Source: Desulfotignum sp.
GTDB lineage: Bacteria; Desulfobacterota; Desulfobacteria; Desulfobacterales; Desulfobacteraceae
Assembly (NCBI GenBank): GCA_011390635.1
Contig: JAABSA010000003.1
Coordinates: 1 to 64,000, forward strand
Length of the DNA stretch: 64,000 bases
Direction of reading: 5' to 3'
Shown piece by piece: positions 45,557 through 52,969 of this stretch. Each line of letters starts with the position of its first letter. The first letter of the stretch is position 1. The position numbers and the translations under genes are program-made. Under the pieces are notes generated by a model. The model did no database searches. It saw nothing but the letters and a program-made list of their open reading frames with translations, and was not told the origin of the DNA.

Positions 45557-46318
45557 ATGTTCACACACGCCATAGTCAAAACACCGTGCAAGAATATGGT
45601 CAACGGCATCAGTCACGCCAACCTGGGAACACCTGATTATGCCCTGGCCGTAAGACAGCATGAACACTACATACAGGCACTTGCATCCTGCGGCCTGGAA
45701 GTTATTGTCCTTGACCCTGATGACGCTTTCCCGGATTCCACATTTATCGAGGATACCTGCCTGGTCACCGGCCGCTGCACGGTTATCACCCGTCCCGGGG
45801 CTGTGTCCAGACAGGGAGAAATCCATGCTGTCACACAGGCCATGGAACGGTTTGACCGGCCCATGGCCGCTATCCAGGCTCCAGCCACCCTGGATGCCGG
45901 AGATGTGATGATGGTAAAGGACCATTTTTATGTGGGGCTTTCCGACCGGACCAATGCAGCAGGGATATCCCAGCTCAAACAGATTCTGGCACCATATGGC
46001 TATACGGTTTCCCCCATTGCACTCACTTCTGTGCTCCACCTGAAAACCGGGGTTTCCTATCTGGAAAACAATTGTCTGCTGGCATGGGGGGAATTTGTAA
46101 CCAAACCGGAACTGGCCGGATTCACAATGCTGCCGGTGGATGACACCGAATCCTATGCCGCCAATTGCGTATGGATCAATGACCGGGTGCTGGTGCCGGA
46201 AGGATTTGCAAAAACCAGGGACATGATTGCACACCAGGGATATGAAACCATTGCAGTGGATGTATCAGAATTCAGAAAACTGGACGGGGGATTGAGCTGC
46301 CTGTCTCTGCGGTTTTAA
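45557..46318 (+). CDS. Dimethylargininase / arginine deiminase superfamily hydrolase
   Basis: The 253-residue protein fits the DDAH branch of guanidino-modifying enzymes: PDSTFIEDTCLV (substrate-binding Asp/Glu), LHLKTGVSYL (catalytic His161) and C-terminal DGGLSCLSLRF (nucleophile Cys248). These enzymes hydrolyse methylarginines or arginine to citrulline. AGGAG precedes the ATG. The preceding transporter may move a related compound; that link is inference. Confidence 0.88.
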   Translation: MFTHAIVKTPCKNMVNGISHANLGTPDYALAVRQHEHYIQALASCGLEVIVLDPDDAFPDSTFIEDTCLVTGRCTVITRPGAVSRQGEIHAVTQAMERFDRPMAAIQAPATLDAGDVMMVKDHFYVGLSDRTNAAGISQLKQILAPYGYTVSPIALTSVLHLKTGVSYLENNCLLAWGEFVTKPELAGFTMLPVDDTESYAANCVWINDRVLVPEGFAKTRDMIAHQGYETIAVDVSEFRKLDGGLSCLSLRF

Positions 46319-46788: not shown

Positions 46789-47763
46789 TTATGCTTTTAC
46801 CGTCACCCGGCAGACCACAACTTTTTTGCCGGGCAGCCCGGTATGTCTTTCCAGGTCCGGACCCGAAAAAACACCCACCTGGATCCGGGCCAAAAGCCTG
46901 CAGCCGTCCATGGCTTCCACCAGGTCTTTTTCCAGCGGTCCCTGGTCTTTTGGATACTGGTCTGTCACTATTTTTTCCAGCATACCCAGAAAATGGTTTT
47001 GCCATTCCAGCTTGCGGGCACACCCATCTTCATGCACTTTTATACAATCAATGTCAAGGGCATTTATGGCCCTTGTAGAAATTGCGGCCAGGTATTCAAA
47101 AACCGCACTGCTGGTGGTAATCAACACCAGGGGCCGGTGACCGGCAAATATTTTTTCTTCCCCGGCACAGGCAGCCCAGGCAAAGATGCGCTCACGTGTC
47201 ATGGCCGCACCCGGGTCCCGGGATGGACCATCAGCAGCACGCGGCAGGGTCTTTTCCGGATACAGCTCCCCTTTCAAATCCGAAAACAGGGCAGCCTGTT
47301 TTTTTTCCAGGCCTGCCAGGTCAGCATCAATGGTCTCATTGTGGGCATCGGTGAGCTGAGCGATTTTCAAAAACAGCATCGGATCAACAGATGCCGGGTT
47401 TTGGTTGTCACTGCATGCTCCCTGCCGGATTCTCGCCCTGAGTTCAGATTGAATGGCAAACGTTCCTCCAACCTCACTGAAATACGGACCAGCCTTGAGC
47501 AATGCCTTCAGGTTTCTCCGGTTGCCCTTGTGCAGTTCTGCCCAGTTCAGCCAGGCTGCAACCTGTGATTCCAGTTGTCCAAGACGTTTGCCCGGCATAA
47601 ACACAGGGGTTACCACCCCTTTTTCCACCCAGGGTGTCATGGGGTGGTTTTCGGGCAGTTGTGCTGCCAGTGGCAGGTATTGAAAATGGGGAAAAACCGC
47701 TGTCAGGGTCCGGCACTGATCATGATCCACATGGGAAAAGGGAAAAAAGACCATGTCCATCAT
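46789..47763 (-). CDS. Conserved-looking cytosolic protein of unknown function, coupled to the CysK-CysRS-like gene
   Basis: I do not recognise this 324-residue protein. It has no signal peptide or membrane helix. The start MMDMVFFPFSHVDHDQCRTL is followed by alpha-rich sequence (NWAELHKGNRRNLKALLKAG, FLKIAQLTDAHNETIDADL). A possible beta-alpha region ends with GKKVVVCRVTVKA. Several His and Cys residues are scattered but form no motif I can name. The ATG overlaps the TGA of the CysK-CysRS-like gene as ATGA, so the two are translationally coupled and may act together. Confidence 0.7.
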   Translation of the reverse strand: MMDMVFFPFSHVDHDQCRTLTAVFPHFQYLPLAAQLPENHPMTPWVEKGVVTPVFMPGKRLGQLESQVAAWLNWAELHKGNRRNLKALLKAGPYFSEVGGTFAIQSELRARIRQGACSDNQNPASVDPMLFLKIAQLTDAHNETIDADLAGLEKKQAALFSDLKGELYPEKTLPRAADGPSRDPGAAMTRERIFAWAACAGEEKIFAGHRPLVLITTSSAVFEYLAAISTRAINALDIDCIKVHEDGCARKLEWQNHFLGMLEKIVTDQYPKDQGPLEKDLVEAMDGCRLLARIQVGVFSGPDLERHTGLPGKKVVVCRVTVKA

Positions 47764-50063
47764 GTCATACCAACCTTTTTATCATGCACCTGCACACCCA
47801 TTGCAGCAAGTTTTTCTCTGATCATGTCCGCTGTTTTCCAGTCCTGTTTCCGCCGTGCATCATCCCGTTGTCCGATAAGATATGTAACCTCATCGGTATA
47901 TTCCATTTTTTTGCTAAAATCACATACCTGTAAAATAGTGTCCATTTCCCGGAAACAGTCCAGAATCTGTTCTGCATTGGCAGCATTGATGCTGTTCTGG
48001 CTCACGAGGGCATTAATTTTTTTGACATTTGCCAGAAGCGAGGCAATGGCAGCAGAAATCTTCAAATCATCGGCCATGGCTGCCAGAATTCCCTGGCGGA
48101 TATCATACACCAGCTGGTCTATGCCGCCATAGGCGTGGCCTTGTGCAATTTTTGCAGACCTGATTTTTCCAAGGGTTGCAATACACCGGTTGATTTTGGC
48201 CAGGGTCGCTTTTGCATCGGTCAGGGCCCGGAATGACAATACCAGGCCCCTGCGGTAATGGCCGGACATGAGCCAGAAACGGATGGTATTGTTATCCCAC
48301 CCCTGTTGTGCCAGTGTATCCAGGGTGATGTCATCCATGTGTTGTATCCCCAGAGAGCCGTCATATTGCACCGGGTCACAATGCAGCCAGAAATTGGCCA
48401 GTTGCTGTCCGCAGGCAGCCCTGGCAATGGCCCTTTCATTTTCATGGTGGGGAAACACAAGCTCCCGGCTGCCGGTGTGGATATCAAAGGGCGCCCCCAG
48501 ATGGGCCATGGACATGGCTGCGCACTGGAGGTGCAGTGACGGCCGTACCGTCCCCCATTCGGTTTTCAACCCTATGCCCTGGCGCAGCTCTGACAAACGG
48601 ACCCGCTTGAACAACGTAAAATCCCGGGGATTGTGTTTTTCATATTCATCCAGGTCCACTGTGGATCCCACCCGGATTTTCTGGATATCCATCCTGGACA
48701 GGTGTCCGTATTCAGCAACACTGGATATATCAAAATACACGGAGTGCAGTTTTTCATAGGCATGGCCCCGGTTCAGCAGGTTCCGGGTCAAAGCCGCCAT
48801 GTCCGAAAAATGGTCCGACACCCTGGGGTATCCCTGGGCAGGCCTGATCCTGAGCCGTTCCAGGTCCTGGAAAAAGGTCTCAATATGGGGCCTGGTGAAA
48901 TCTTTGAGGCTGCACCCGGCCTGCTTTGCCCCCTGGATTGTCCGGTCATCATAATCAGTTATATTGACCACATGATTGATGTTTATCCTGTGAAAGGCCA
49001 GATAGCGCACCAGAAGGTCTGTAAACACATACCGTCTGAAACGCCCGGGGTTCAGCCGCTGATAAACCGTGGGGCCGCAGGTGTATATGGTTACGGTATC
49101 GGATTTCAACGGCTTGAACCCCTGTTTTTCAGCGGCAAGGGTATTGAACAGGTGTAACTGGATTTTGTGTTTTACGGAAAACAATGGTGTGGATAAATAC
49201 CGTTCCCCGGAATCGGGAAAAATGACCACCACAACACCTTTTTGTATCCTGTGGGCCTCTTTTACAGCAGCAGCCATGGCAGCGCCCGAACTCATGCCCA
49301 CAAACAGCCCTTCTTGTAAAGCCAGCTGCCGGGCGGTTTCAAAGGCCAGATCATCGTCAATGTGCAGCACCTTGTCCAGTCTTTTTTTTTCAAAAATTTC
49401 GGGAGTATAGGACTCTTTCATATTTTTGAGCCCCTGGATACCATGGCCCAGAAACGGTTCGGCACAGACAATGCTGGTTTCCGGGCTGTGTTCTGTAAAG
49501 TACCGGGACAATCCCATAAGCGTGCCCGAGGTCCCCACCGTGGCCACTACACTGGTTATTTTATCATGTATCTGTGCCATGATTTCCGGTGCTGTGGTGT
49601 GGTAATGGGCCTGCCAGTTGGCCGCATTATTGTACTGGTCGGTGATAAAATAGGTATCAGGATTTTCCCGGGCCAGGCGATAGGCTTCTTCAATGGCTCC
49701 GTCGGATCCCAGGTGCCGGGGAGTCAGGATGATTTTTGCACCCCGGGCCCGAAGAATGTTTTTGCGCTCTTCACTGGCATTTTCCGCCATGGTCAGGGCA
49801 AGATCATAGCCTTTGACTGCACAGATCATGGCCAGACCGATGCCGGTATTGCCCGAAGTGGCTTCTATAACGGTTTTTTCTTTTGTCAACTGGCCGGATG
49901 CCTCCCCTGCAGTGATCATATAAAGGGCGGCCCGGTCTTTGATTGATCCCCCGGGGTTCATGTATTCCAGTTTGGCAAATATTTTCACCCCGGGCACAGG
50001 ATTCATCCGCCTGATTTCCACCACCGGTGTATTTCCGATGGCGTCTATGATGGAGTCAGTCAT
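47760..50063 (-). CDS. Cysteine synthase fused to a cysteinyl-tRNA-synthetase-like domain lacking HIGH and KMSKS
   Basis: Residues 1-295 are an O-acetylserine sulfhydrylase-type PLP enzyme: NPGGSIKDRAAL (Lys42 binds PLP), EATSGNTGIGLAMI, and GTSGTLMGLSRY. Residues about 318-767 align with cysteinyl-tRNA synthetase: YTCGPTVY (Cys329), RPSLHLQCAAMS (Cys514) and FPHHENERA (His539, Glu543) keep all four zinc ligands. However, the ATP-binding HIGH site reads NPGR and the KMSKSLGN loop reads QYDGSLGI. A standard charging reaction is therefore unlikely from this domain, and a normal cysS should exist elsewhere. Alternatives: a cysteine-binding or persulfide-related enzyme, or a regulator. The fusion is continuous in one frame with no sign of a sequencing join. 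Confidence 0.88.
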   Translation of the reverse strand: MTDSIIDAIGNTPVVEIRRMNPVPGVKIFAKLEYMNPGGSIKDRAALYMITAGEASGQLTKEKTVIEATSGNTGIGLAMICAVKGYDLALTMAENASEERKNILRARGAKIILTPRHLGSDGAIEEAYRLARENPDTYFITDQYNNAANWQAHYHTTAPEIMAQIHDKITSVVATVGTSGTLMGLSRYFTEHSPETSIVCAEPFLGHGIQGLKNMKESYTPEIFEKKRLDKVLHIDDDLAFETARQLALQEGLFVGMSSGAAMAAAVKEAHRIQKGVVVVIFPDSGERYLSTPLFSVKHKIQLHLFNTLAAEKQGFKPLKSDTVTIYTCGPTVYQRLNPGRFRRYVFTDLLVRYLAFHRININHVVNITDYDDRTIQGAKQAGCSLKDFTRPHIETFFQDLERLRIRPAQGYPRVSDHFSDMAALTRNLLNRGHAYEKLHSVYFDISSVAEYGHLSRMDIQKIRVGSTVDLDEYEKHNPRDFTLFKRVRLSELRQGIGLKTEWGTVRPSLHLQCAAMSMAHLGAPFDIHTGSRELVFPHHENERAIARAACGQQLANFWLHCDPVQYDGSLGIQHMDDITLDTLAQQGWDNNTIRFWLMSGHYRRGLVLSFRALTDAKATLAKINRCIATLGKIRSAKIAQGHAYGGIDQLVYDIRQGILAAMADDLKISAAIASLLANVKKINALVSQNSINAANAEQILDCFREMDTILQVCDFSKKMEYTDEVTYLIGQRDDARRKQDWKTADMIREKLAAMGVQVHDKKVGMT

Positions 50064-50168: not shown

Positions 50169-52448
50169 ATGGTTGTGCAATTGATTACTGGCAGGTTCAT
50201 GCGCTGTTTTTTCTCCAGAATTTCGTTGATTATGTATGCAGTTTCTACTGTGATCTGTCTTGTTGCCTGCCTGCCCGGCACAGGACAGGCAGTTGATCTG
50301 CCAAAAGATCCTGAAACTGTTTCCTGGCATCTTTCAGCCATGACAGTCTCCTATGATGATACGCGTGACCTGTTCATTGCCGAAGAAAATGTGGTGATCA
50401 CCGGAGGCAGAACCCGGCTGGAAGCTGATTATGTGGAATTCTCAAACACGACCAAGGATGCGGTGGCCCAGGGCAATGTCAGACTGATTTCCGGCGGAGA
50501 TGTCATTTCCTGCAATGCCATGGAAATCAACCTTGCCACCCAGACAGGGTTTATTCACAAAGGCACCATTTTTATACAGAAAAACCATTTTTATATCCAT
50601 GGTGAAAATATCCGCAAAACCGGCAAGATAACGTATACTGCCCAAAAAGGATCCATCACCTCCTGTGACGGTGATACCCCGGACTGGAAAATCACCGGCA
50701 ACAATATCAGGGTCACCATCGAAGGGTACGGGCTTGCCAGGGATGTCACCCTGTGGGCAAAAAACATGCCGGCCCTGTACGTCCCTTTTCTCACATTTCC
50801 CGTAAAAACCAAACGCCAGACCGGTTTTCTCATCCCCCGCATCGCTTCTTCCGACCGGTTGGGATTTGTATATGAGCAGCCGTTTTTCTGGTCCCTTTCT
50901 CCCAGTAATGATGCCACCTTGTATGCTGGATATCTGTCGGACAGGGGCCCCAAAATTGCCGGTGAATACCGGTATCTGTCAGATGCCCGGTCCAAAGGCC
51001 TCTTTCGCCTGGATTATCTGTCGGACGACAAAACCGATGACGGCACTGATGCCACCGAAGATTACCGGTTCGACACCACCCCTTTGCGCACCAATACAGA
51101 CCGTTACTGGCTGCGCATGAAAACCGACCGGGTACTGCCCAATGGATTTTTTGCCAAACTGGATGTGGATATAGTATCTGATGCGGATTATCTGCTGGAG
51201 TTCAAAGACGGGTTTACCGGATATGATGACACCAACAAGATGTTTCAGGATCAGTTTGGAAGAGGTCTGGATGAATATGATGATACCATCAGAAAAAACA
51301 GTTTGGTCATTGACCGTTCCTGGTCCCAGCATGCCCTGGTGGCCAATGCCCTCTGGTATGATGATGTCATTGCCAGACGTGCCGACACCGAAGACACCAC
51401 CCTCCAGACACTGCCGGGCCTGGAATTTTATGCACTGCGCCAGCAGATCGGATCCACTGGTTTTTATTATGCCATGGATACACAATTTCAGTCTTTTTTC
51501 CGCCAGGATACCCGGGATATGGCCACAATCGACCGAACAAGTGCAAAAACCCGGGGCCAGCGCCTGGATGTGAACCCCAGCGTGTTTTATCCCATGAAAC
51601 TGGGAAAGTCCGTGGCTTTCCAGCCGTTTATCGGAGTTCGGGGAACCGTCTACCATGCGGACAGTTTTATTGATGCCACCGGAGATGATGACAGTCTCAG
51701 ATTCCGGGGATTGTATGATCTGGGCGCAGATATTTCCACCCGTTTGAACCGGGTTTTTATGCTGAATACCGCATTTGCCGAAAAAATACAGCACCAGGTG
51801 ACACCGGCACTGGGCTACCGGTTTCTCCCCCGGGTGGATCAGCAGGATCTGCCGTTTTTTGACGCTCTGGATGACATACAGGAACAAAACAAAATCACCT
51901 GGTCTTTGACCAACCGGTTTTTCGCAAAAAAAACCATTGCCGGCCCGGACCAGACTGTCCAAAACAATTACAATGAACTGGCGTGGATTACATTCTTCCA
52001 GGACTATGATATTACAAATGATCGGGATGACGCTGACGGCAGATCCTGGTCCGACATACAGATGGAAACCCGAATATTTCCATTTTCTTTTCTGTCCATG
52101 AGAACCGACCTGGCCTGGTCTCCCTATGATTACGATTTCACAACCTTTAATGTTGATGCCACTGTGACAGACAAACGCGGGGATGCCGTCACCACAGCGT
52201 ACAGGTATACCATGGACACCAATGAAACCTGGTATACGCGGTTCAAAGCCCGGATCACCCCGGCCCTGTCCGCCTATTATTCCTTTGAACTGGATCTTGC
52301 CCGTGAAAACACCATTGAAACCCGCACCGGCATCATCCTGGAAGAGGCCTGCTGGACCATGGGCCTGGAATTCAAGGAATCAGATTCAGACATGGGTATC
52401 GCTTTTATGATTACCCTGAAAGGGATAGGAGAGTTCAGCTCACAATGA
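50169..52448 (+). CDS. lptD: LPS-assembly outer-membrane protein LptD
   Basis: LptD inserts lipopolysaccharide into the outer leaflet. The 759-residue protein has a signal peptide (cleavage near GTGQA) and an N-terminal OstA/LptA-like jellyroll (about 50-190, e.g. VVITGGRTRLEADYVEF and IHGENIRKTGKITYTA). A large beta-barrel follows (LYVPFLTFPVKTKRQTGFL onward, many alternating aromatic strands). The ATG at 50169 or that at 50199 may be used; both precede the signal peptide. It overlaps the NusG-like gene by 4 bp. Confidence 0.94.
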   Translation: MVVQLITGRFMRCFFSRISLIMYAVSTVICLVACLPGTGQAVDLPKDPETVSWHLSAMTVSYDDTRDLFIAEENVVITGGRTRLEADYVEFSNTTKDAVAQGNVRLISGGDVISCNAMEINLATQTGFIHKGTIFIQKNHFYIHGENIRKTGKITYTAQKGSITSCDGDTPDWKITGNNIRVTIEGYGLARDVTLWAKNMPALYVPFLTFPVKTKRQTGFLIPRIASSDRLGFVYEQPFFWSLSPSNDATLYAGYLSDRGPKIAGEYRYLSDARSKGLFRLDYLSDDKTDDGTDATEDYRFDTTPLRTNTDRYWLRMKTDRVLPNGFFAKLDVDIVSDADYLLEFKDGFTGYDDTNKMFQDQFGRGLDEYDDTIRKNSLVIDRSWSQHALVANALWYDDVIARRADTEDTTLQTLPGLEFYALRQQIGSTGFYYAMDTQFQSFFRQDTRDMATIDRTSAKTRGQRLDVNPSVFYPMKLGKSVAFQPFIGVRGTVYHADSFIDATGDDDSLRFRGLYDLGADISTRLNRVFMLNTAFAEKIQHQVTPALGYRFLPRVDQQDLPFFDALDDIQEQNKITWSLTNRFFAKKTIAGPDQTVQNNYNELAWITFFQDYDITNDRDDADGRSWSDIQMETRIFPFSFLSMRTDLAWSPYDYDFTTFNVDATVTDKRGDAVTTAYRYTMDTNETWYTRFKARITPALSAYYSFELDLARENTIETRTGIILEEACWTMGLEFKESDSDMGIAFMITLKGIGEFSSQ

Positions 52449-52969
52449 CACAGCCGTTTCACTGGTTTGCCCTTCTGACCCGGAGCAATTTTGAACAGAT
52501 CGTCTTTGACCAGGTTACCAAAAAAAACATCACTGCATTCCTGCCCAAGACAAAAAAAACCAGCCGCCGCAGGGACCGCAAACGTATTATTGACGTGCCG
52601 CTGTTTCCCGGATACCTGTTTGTCAGATCCTGCTTTGCATCCGCCCATCAGCTCAGCATTCTGAAAACACTTGGTGCGGTGCGGATGCTGGGCAATACCG
52701 ATGGTCCGACACCCATACCCGACACCCAGATCCAGTCCCTGAAAATCATGACATCAGCCGGGACAGATTTGATTACAGGATCTTGCATCCAGCTGAAAAA
52801 AGGAGATCCGGTCATGGTGCTGGAAGGCCCCATGGCAGGTGTCAGAGGCGAGTTTTTCCAGCACAAGGGCAAAGGAAGGGTCATCATTAAAATCACACTG
52901 CTGGGCCAGTATGCCGGTGTTGAAATGGATGGGGACAATGTGGAAAAAATACCGGCATTATTATCATAA
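52445..52969 (+). CDS. NusG paralogue / RfaH-UpxY-type antiterminator
   Basis: The 174-residue protein has the NGN domain (HWFALLTRSNFEQIVFDQV, IIDVPLFPGYLFVR) and a KOW domain (LKKGDPVMVLEGPMAGVRGEF). NGN plus KOW at this length, with a specialised sequence, fits specialised NusG paralogues that help RNA polymerase through long envelope or polysaccharide operons. Its ATG overlaps the lptD TGA, so it is translated with an LPS export gene. No ops-like element was identified. Confidence 0.87.
   Translation: MTQPFHWFALLTRSNFEQIVFDQVTKKNITAFLPKTKKTSRRRDRKRIIDVPLFPGYLFVRSCFASAHQLSILKTLGAVRMLGNTDGPTPIPDTQIQSLKIMTSAGTDLITGSCIQLKKGDPVMVLEGPMAGVRGEFFQHKGKGRVIIKITLLGQYAGVEMDGDNVEKIPALLS

Follow-up and report, generated by a model that had tools for sequence, protein, structure and literature searches.

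A cysteine synthase fused to a cysteinyl-tRNA synthetase paralogue without ATP motifs: a possible thiol-sensing regulator in Desulfobacterota

Positions 1-64,000 (forward strand) of contig JAABSA010000003.1 of Desulfotignum sp., assembly GCA_011390635.1, here called the window and meant at its whole length of 64,000 nucleotides, carry on the reverse strand a gene for a two-part protein of 767 residues (47760..50063). A CysM-type cysteine synthase dependent on pyridoxal 5'-phosphate (PLP) forms its N-terminal half, and a paralogue of cysteinyl-tRNA synthetase (CysRS) its C-terminal half. The CysRS-like half has lost the ATP motifs, keeps the four zinc-ligand positions, belongs to a single clade and evolves under purifying selection in a genome that has a separate cysS. 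The reading that we tentatively prefer, as possible rather than probable, is that it is a non-aminoacylating, thiol-sensing domain that might regulate the fused synthase in the way that HisZ acts on its partner.

The domain order is clear from Pfam matches on the open reading frame. A PALP (PLP cysteine synthase) domain covers residues 7-284 (49212..50045, reverse strand; E 4.1e-71), a class I catalytic domain of CysRS type, tRNA-synt_1e, covers residues 316-618 (48210..49118, reverse strand; E 6e-70), and a remnant of the anticodon domain, CysS_C, follows at residues 723-763 (47775..47897, reverse strand; E 1.2e-7) without the C-terminal W-R tail. An earlier note on this DNA, written from the letters alone, had proposed just such a fusion, and the domain assignments agree with it. 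An AlphaFold2 model built from a 51-row alignment (mean predicted local distance difference test score, pLDDT, 89.2; predicted template modelling score 0.75) is matched by Foldseek to solved structures in both halves, with template modelling scores, by target length, of 0.91 for the predicted CysRS half against the CysRS 8qhp and 0.95 for the predicted PALP half against E. coli CysM, 2bhs. On curated models the protein scores 319.4 bits on TIGR00435 (cysS; cut-off 340), 350.7 on TIGR01136 (the cysKM subfamily; cut-off 344.15, which it exceeds), 335.8 on TIGR01138 (the cysM equivalog; cut-off 394.2) and 154.3 on TIGR03447 (MshC), far under the cut-off of 485.1.

What has become of the CysRS active site can be read from an alignment to solved CysRS, including 8qhp, and to the genome's own cysS. 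The HIGH motif is replaced by NPGR (residues 338-341; 49041..49052, reverse strand), as the earlier note had it, and is followed by Arg343 and Arg344. The KMSKS motif is likewise lost, but not where the note had placed it, at QYDGSLGI: in the register set by 8qhp and by those members of the family where DGKKMSRS survives, the equivalent residues are Leu571-Gly-Ile-Gln-His575 (48339..48353, reverse strand), and YDGS (567-570) is the turn directly before them. The alignment supports the retention of all four zinc-ligand positions, Cys329 (49077..49079, reverse strand), Cys514 (48522..48524, reverse strand), and His539 and Glu543 within HHENE (48435..48449, reverse strand). One substitution had been overlooked: four residues before Cys514, a leucine stands in place of Trp510, which is present in all 14 canonical CysRS compared. 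Since the adenylation motifs are lost in the lineage of the window protein, it is very probably unable to charge tRNA.

Site counts across the family refer to 118 distinct members, comprising 64 close sequences and 54 from a phylum-wide survey. KMS[KRF]S occurs in none of the close sequences. The relic domain has also acquired residues of its own: Arg344 is found in all 118 members, and Thr468, Arg487, Leu493, Gly496 and Thr501 each in at least 94% of them, while each of these six residues is found in at most 15% of the 14 canonical rows.

The same alignment bears on the suggestion, made in the earlier note, that the protein forms persulfides. PLP-dependent cysteine persulfide synthesis by CysRS has been reported, for the E. 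coli and human enzymes (PMC5660078), and sulfur-rich hosts together with a linked PLP domain might be thought to favour a role of this kind. In that report, mutating each of the four lysines of KIIK and KMSK in E. coli CysRS markedly cut persulfide synthesis, whereas mutants of the zinc cysteines retained it (PMC5660078). In the window protein KIIK is replaced by RTIQ and KMSK(S) by LGIQH, so that all four implicated lysines are absent, and both KIIK lysines are present in just 4 of the 118 members. The loss of KMSK carries most of the weight here, because the second KIIK lysine is also absent in 8 of the 14 canonical rows and its lack is weak evidence. Zinc positions kept and lysines lost are the reverse of what the CARS-type reaction described there would require. 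Persulfide synthesis in the CARS manner is therefore disfavoured, and we consider it very unlikely; the PALP domain is separate, and PLP chemistry by it remains compatible with the data.

In the PALP half, by contrast with the CysRS-like half, the active site is in place: Lys42, SGNTG, Gln143, GT.GT, Lys213 and Ser258 are all present, and the twelve site positions examined are identical in 118 of 118 members. An IQGLKNM loop stands where CysK-type enzymes have a longer one, and Lys213 lies in this loop, which separates the CysM type from CysK; its position is roughly that of Arg220 in M. tuberculosis CysM. The PLP half looks very likely to make cysteine or a close analogue, with O-acetylserine and O-phosphoserine as candidate substrates.

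Neither housekeeping job need fall to the fused protein. The assembly (4.09 Mb, 98 contigs, 96.4% complete) has a separate canonical cysS on contig C98, with HIGH and KMSKS intact and a score of 464 bits on PF01406 against 239 for the fused domain. The possibility that the fused protein is the sole CysRS of the genome, which together with normal charging in vitro would have refuted the earlier note's idea, is thereby ruled out. A cysE-like gene on contig C47, with 160 bits where the curated cut-off is 210.65, adjoins a PALP gene with a CysK-type loop. The fused gene is thus additional in its CysRS part and probably in its cysteine synthase part too.

The fusion is no artefact of assembly. In a set of 86 genomes from its family, near full-length matches occur in 63, partial or split ones in 11 and none in 12; several of these 12 are incomplete, but four are 90-93% complete, and in these the gene may be truly absent. 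Across the phylum, a CysRS-like domain lies within an open frame of at least 700 residues in at least 150 of 394 genomes, the PALP half having been read directly in the fetched loci, which gave 54 distinct sequences. A collection of named genomes was scanned with short patterns taken from the window protein alone, a procedure that leaves room for the fusion in other phyla. Among the best 80 of the 107 relatives there, fused matches carry labels of Desulfobacterota type, deltaproteobacterial labels or unspecific proteobacterial ones, and matches from other phyla span the PALP half only. Judged by these matches, the fusion appears to be widely carried by sulfate-reducing bacteria of one phylum, the Desulfobacterota.

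Variants of the arrangement were also seen. In some genomes the fused gene is present twice, the second copy being divergent (loci L046 and L048 of one metagenome-assembled genome; G058:C1:2260877-2262964; G050:C239:607-2889); the L046 copy lies near universal-stress, iron-sulfur, nitrate-reductase-gamma-like and cytochrome c3 genes, and L047 and L048 show matching clusters. The frame at L163:1-3945 (forward strand) is 1315 residues long, with about 530 residues before the fusion that have no Pfam match and may be merely open frame. In genus g3 (G004, G005, G006, G007, G009 and G011) the matches are split between the PALP and CysRS parts, and in five of the six genomes the split matches lie within frames of 856-1159 residues, suggesting an insertion or extension. 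A Bacillota frame of 727 residues (L081:4720-6900, forward strand), of which only about 300 match PALP, is possibly an unrelated PALP fusion.

Is the CysRS-like half simply decaying? The stepwise loss of its signature motifs, and a constraint weaker than that on canonical cysS, might suggest a domain without function. We compared the window gene with seven relatives by the ratio of nonsynonymous to synonymous substitution rates (dN/dS) and found 0.06-0.09 for the PALP half, 0.08-0.19 for the CysRS-like catalytic domain and 0.17-0.33 for the C-terminal part. Purifying selection thus acts on the relic catalytic domain. These values, the new residues that are invariant family-wide and the long open frames found in so many genomes of the phylum lead us to reject functionless decay, which we regard as extremely unlikely.

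The C-terminal part needs more care, as it bears on whether the domain owes its retention to the binding of RNA, be it tRNA-Cys or some other, which might for instance link translation to the supply of cysteine. Among the four closer pairs, this part is clearly more relaxed than the catalytic domain (0.28-0.33 against 0.08-0.13); in the three more distant pairs, where its synonymous divergence (dS) is 1.8-2.2, the two are about equal (0.203 against 0.188 for L008, 0.184 against 0.156 for L010, 0.165 against 0.169 for L009). Working canonical cysS, used as a control in four genome pairs, shows the same tendency, with 0.17-0.25 for its C-terminal part and 0.04-0.06 for its catalytic domain. The relaxation is thus not special to the fusion and by itself does not argue against tRNA binding, and the anticodon-domain fold is still recognisable through its CysS_C match. 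It is, however, somewhat stronger than in canonical cysS in the three closest pairs with a control (0.28-0.32 against 0.17-0.21), though not in the fourth (0.165 against 0.248, with dS near saturation), and the W-R tail is absent in 62 of the 64 close sequences, being kept in two, and in 92 of the 118 members overall. We consider RNA binding a doubtful explanation.

A quick maximum-likelihood tree, the phylogeny that the earlier note had proposed, places 71 fused domains on one side of a branch and 14 canonical CysRS on the other, with a value of 100 in the Shimodaira-Hasegawa-like approximate likelihood ratio test; 27 of its 82 inner branches are under 80. The fused domains form one family, which fits a single origin of the fusion. 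Along this family the CysRS signatures erode unevenly: HxG is found in 28 of the 71 rows, KMSxS in 8 and all four zinc ligands in 38. The tree requires at least 4 changes for KMSxS and at least 10 for the full zinc set, which we read as repeated loss.

Six rows (L129, L153, L159, L160, L161 and L163) retain HxG, KMSxS, the zinc ligands, Trp510 and Asp534 together. They give some substance to another explanation, in which an ancestor, and perhaps these six members today, made cysteine and then adenylated it for an acceptor, as MshC does, or for a special tRNA, the window protein being a derived form. The W-R tail is present in four of the five C-termini viewed (L129, L153, L160 and L161, not L159), three tested members score 427-461 bits on the cysS model, and the single-contig genomes G321 and G262, in which near motif-complete members occur, hold a canonical cysS besides. 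The six are not fully canonical, however: the fourth residue of HIGH is changed, to HLGN in L129 (close to the HIGN of two canonical rows) and to HLGL in the other five. Nor do the close sequences, the window's included, keep KMSKS; no conserved acceptor-pathway neighbour was seen in the gene neighbourhoods, and the window protein scores far too low on the MshC model. As an account of the window protein we think this quite improbable. No canonical cysS was found in the assemblies G473 (97% complete) and G400 (94%). Two genomes of the genus of G473, G443 and G458, have one, and other genomes of the family of G400 show a second match; we read the two absences as assembly gaps, which is not proven.

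The gradient has a practical consequence. On TIGR00435 a canonical protein scores 569 bits, L129 461, L160 431, L161 427, L115 363, the window protein 319, L147 279 and L168 142. As four of the seven fused proteins tested (L129, L160, L161 and L115, the last without KMSKS) exceed the NCBI cysS cut-off of 340, misannotation as cysS is likely, and some genomes may have been assigned a second CysRS where none exists.

What, then, might the domain do in the window protein and its close relatives? Under the reading that we prefer, the CysM-type synthase would bear at its C-terminus a CysRS paralogue that has retained the old amino-acid site, that is, the zinc positions and neighbouring residues. 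Through a zinc ion held there, the relic domain may bind cysteine, another thiol or sulfide, and its ligand state might be passed allosterically to the fused PLP domain as feedback or control of activity, as HisZ does for HisG. HisZ is reported to be a catalytically inactive paralogue of histidyl-tRNA synthetase that binds histidine and controls HisG (PMC10795190, PMC9437257). The combination that marks HisZ, in which a synthetase paralogue that lacks adenylation motifs is coupled to an enzyme from the biosynthesis of the corresponding amino acid, appears in the sequence of the window protein also. What selection appears to have preserved is the neighbourhood of the old amino-acid site, together with all four zinc-ligand positions in 58 of the 64 close sequences.

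Several observations weigh against this reading. The full zinc set is present in only 82 of the 118 members, and in 24 of the 54 phylum-wide ones; neither zinc cysteine is present in 13 of the 71 tree rows. A zinc-thiol sensor therefore cannot be universal in the family, and while the earlier note's picture of a domain that could bind cysteine but not activate it stands as to the lost ATP motifs and the kept zinc positions, cysteine binding is weakened as a family-wide role. In most of the window's own clade Trp510 has become leucine (52 of the 64 close sequences, the window's included), and in the four genome pairs with a canonical control the relic catalytic domain has a dN/dS that is 1.3 to 3.3 times as high as in its counterpart in canonical cysS.

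If the clades without zinc ligands keep the domain for another reason, the chief rival is a structural or oligomerisation scaffold on which the synthase depends, with any zinc structural and no ligand sensed. In keeping with this, different lineages have lost the zinc ligands, HIGH and KMSKS, but Gly330, Pro331, Arg343, Arg344, Asp370, Asp527, Phe537 and Pro538 are invariant in the 51-row alignment, and the PLP half retains its site throughout. By sequence position, however, the invariant residues are not simply scattered: many fall within the class I motif regions or next to them, and the retention of all four zinc-ligand positions in so many of the close sequences likewise counts against a scaffold. 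We regard it as a serious explanation, although an unlikely one. Our preferred reading, of a thiol sensor, can also be extended to the history of the family, as a Desulfobacterota cysteine counterpart of HisZ: the fused CysRS would have begun as a cysteine-activating domain and been repeatedly converted to a zinc-thiol sensor, with the six near motif-complete members perhaps still making and activating cysteine. Stated in this full form the proposal is rather unlikely, but if it is true, the successive stages in the change of a tRNA synthetase into a metabolic regulator are preserved in a living family.

The surroundings of the gene were examined at 56 loci, many of them of Desulfobacteraceae type. 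A downstream gene for a protein of 324 residues (46789..47763, reverse strand) has a start that overlaps the stop of the fused gene by 4 nucleotides, and in 47 of the 56 loci a member of its cluster comes after the fused gene. Its product has no Pfam match, its predicted fold (pLDDT 81.7) no match in the PDB better than E 1.6, and it evolves fast, with 6 invariant residues across 24 sequences. Upstream, the fused gene is divergent from lptD in the window and from an lptD-like gene in 45 of the 56 loci, the label outside the window being read from gene cluster, size and place. Distant loci have a variety of neighbours (thymidylate kinase, SurE, an OB/HD protein, Memo, ARMT1-like proteins, tRNA-U5- and RlmN-type methylases, IPPT, MurJ and cytochromes), with no common theme in the neighbourhoods examined. 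Directly after lptD in the window lies a gene for a NusG-like protein (52445-52969, forward strand), possibly a specialised NusG for envelope genes; its apparent cluster, judged by size and place, recurs in 33 of the 56 loci. A dimethylargininase-like protein (NF045658, 337 bits, under the cut-off of 450) is encoded at 45557-46318 on the forward strand, and a tRNA-Ser is the only tRNA found in the window.

No report of a cysteine synthase-CysRS fusion, or of such a paralogue, was found in searches of the open-licence literature aimed at it, and the protein is best placed by comparison with its separate relatives. It resembles CysM of E. coli (2bhs) and M. tuberculosis (3dki) in fold, in the PLP active-site residues and in the IQGLKNM loop, but has a C-terminal domain fused to it and scores below the cysM equivalog cut-off (335.8 bits against 394.2). 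It resembles CysS (8qhp, 1li5, 1u0b) in fold and in the zinc-ligand positions, but is without HIGH, KMSKS and the W-R tail, has leucine for Trp510 and scores 319.4 bits against 340. MshC, the mycothiol cysteine ligase, is likewise a CysRS paralogue outside translation; it ligates cysteine with ATP, however, and the window protein scores 154 on its model against a cut-off of 485.

The same order, Desulfobacterales, has a second CysRS paralogue, CysRS*, which charges SelC*. In the published accounts CysRS* is an active enzyme without an anticodon domain, located by selC* and selB* (PMC7609411, PMC9437257), whereas the window protein keeps a remnant of that domain, CysS_C, and is fused to a synthase. 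As far as those accounts go, the presence of CysS_C rules out its identity with CysRS*; selB* near the fused gene was looked for only through a Pfam scan of seven proteins of the window. We rate the family as a synthetase paralogue recruited to metabolism and, by the same accounts, as distinct from the published CysRS*.

The closest likeness is to HisZ, the regulatory subunit of ATP phosphoribosyltransferase, where likewise an aminoacyl-tRNA synthetase paralogue that has no aminoacylation motifs partners an enzyme of the pathway to its own amino acid. The window protein differs in that its paralogue derives from CysRS, a class I synthetase, and is covalently linked to its partner, whose regulation by it we put forward as a proposal. 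If this is true, the short list of synthetase paralogues known to assist in making their own amino acid gains a class I, cysteine case, and one from organisms that process large amounts of sulfide. As the family grades from members with nearly all motifs to members with none, the passage from enzyme to regulator can be tested on natural proteins.

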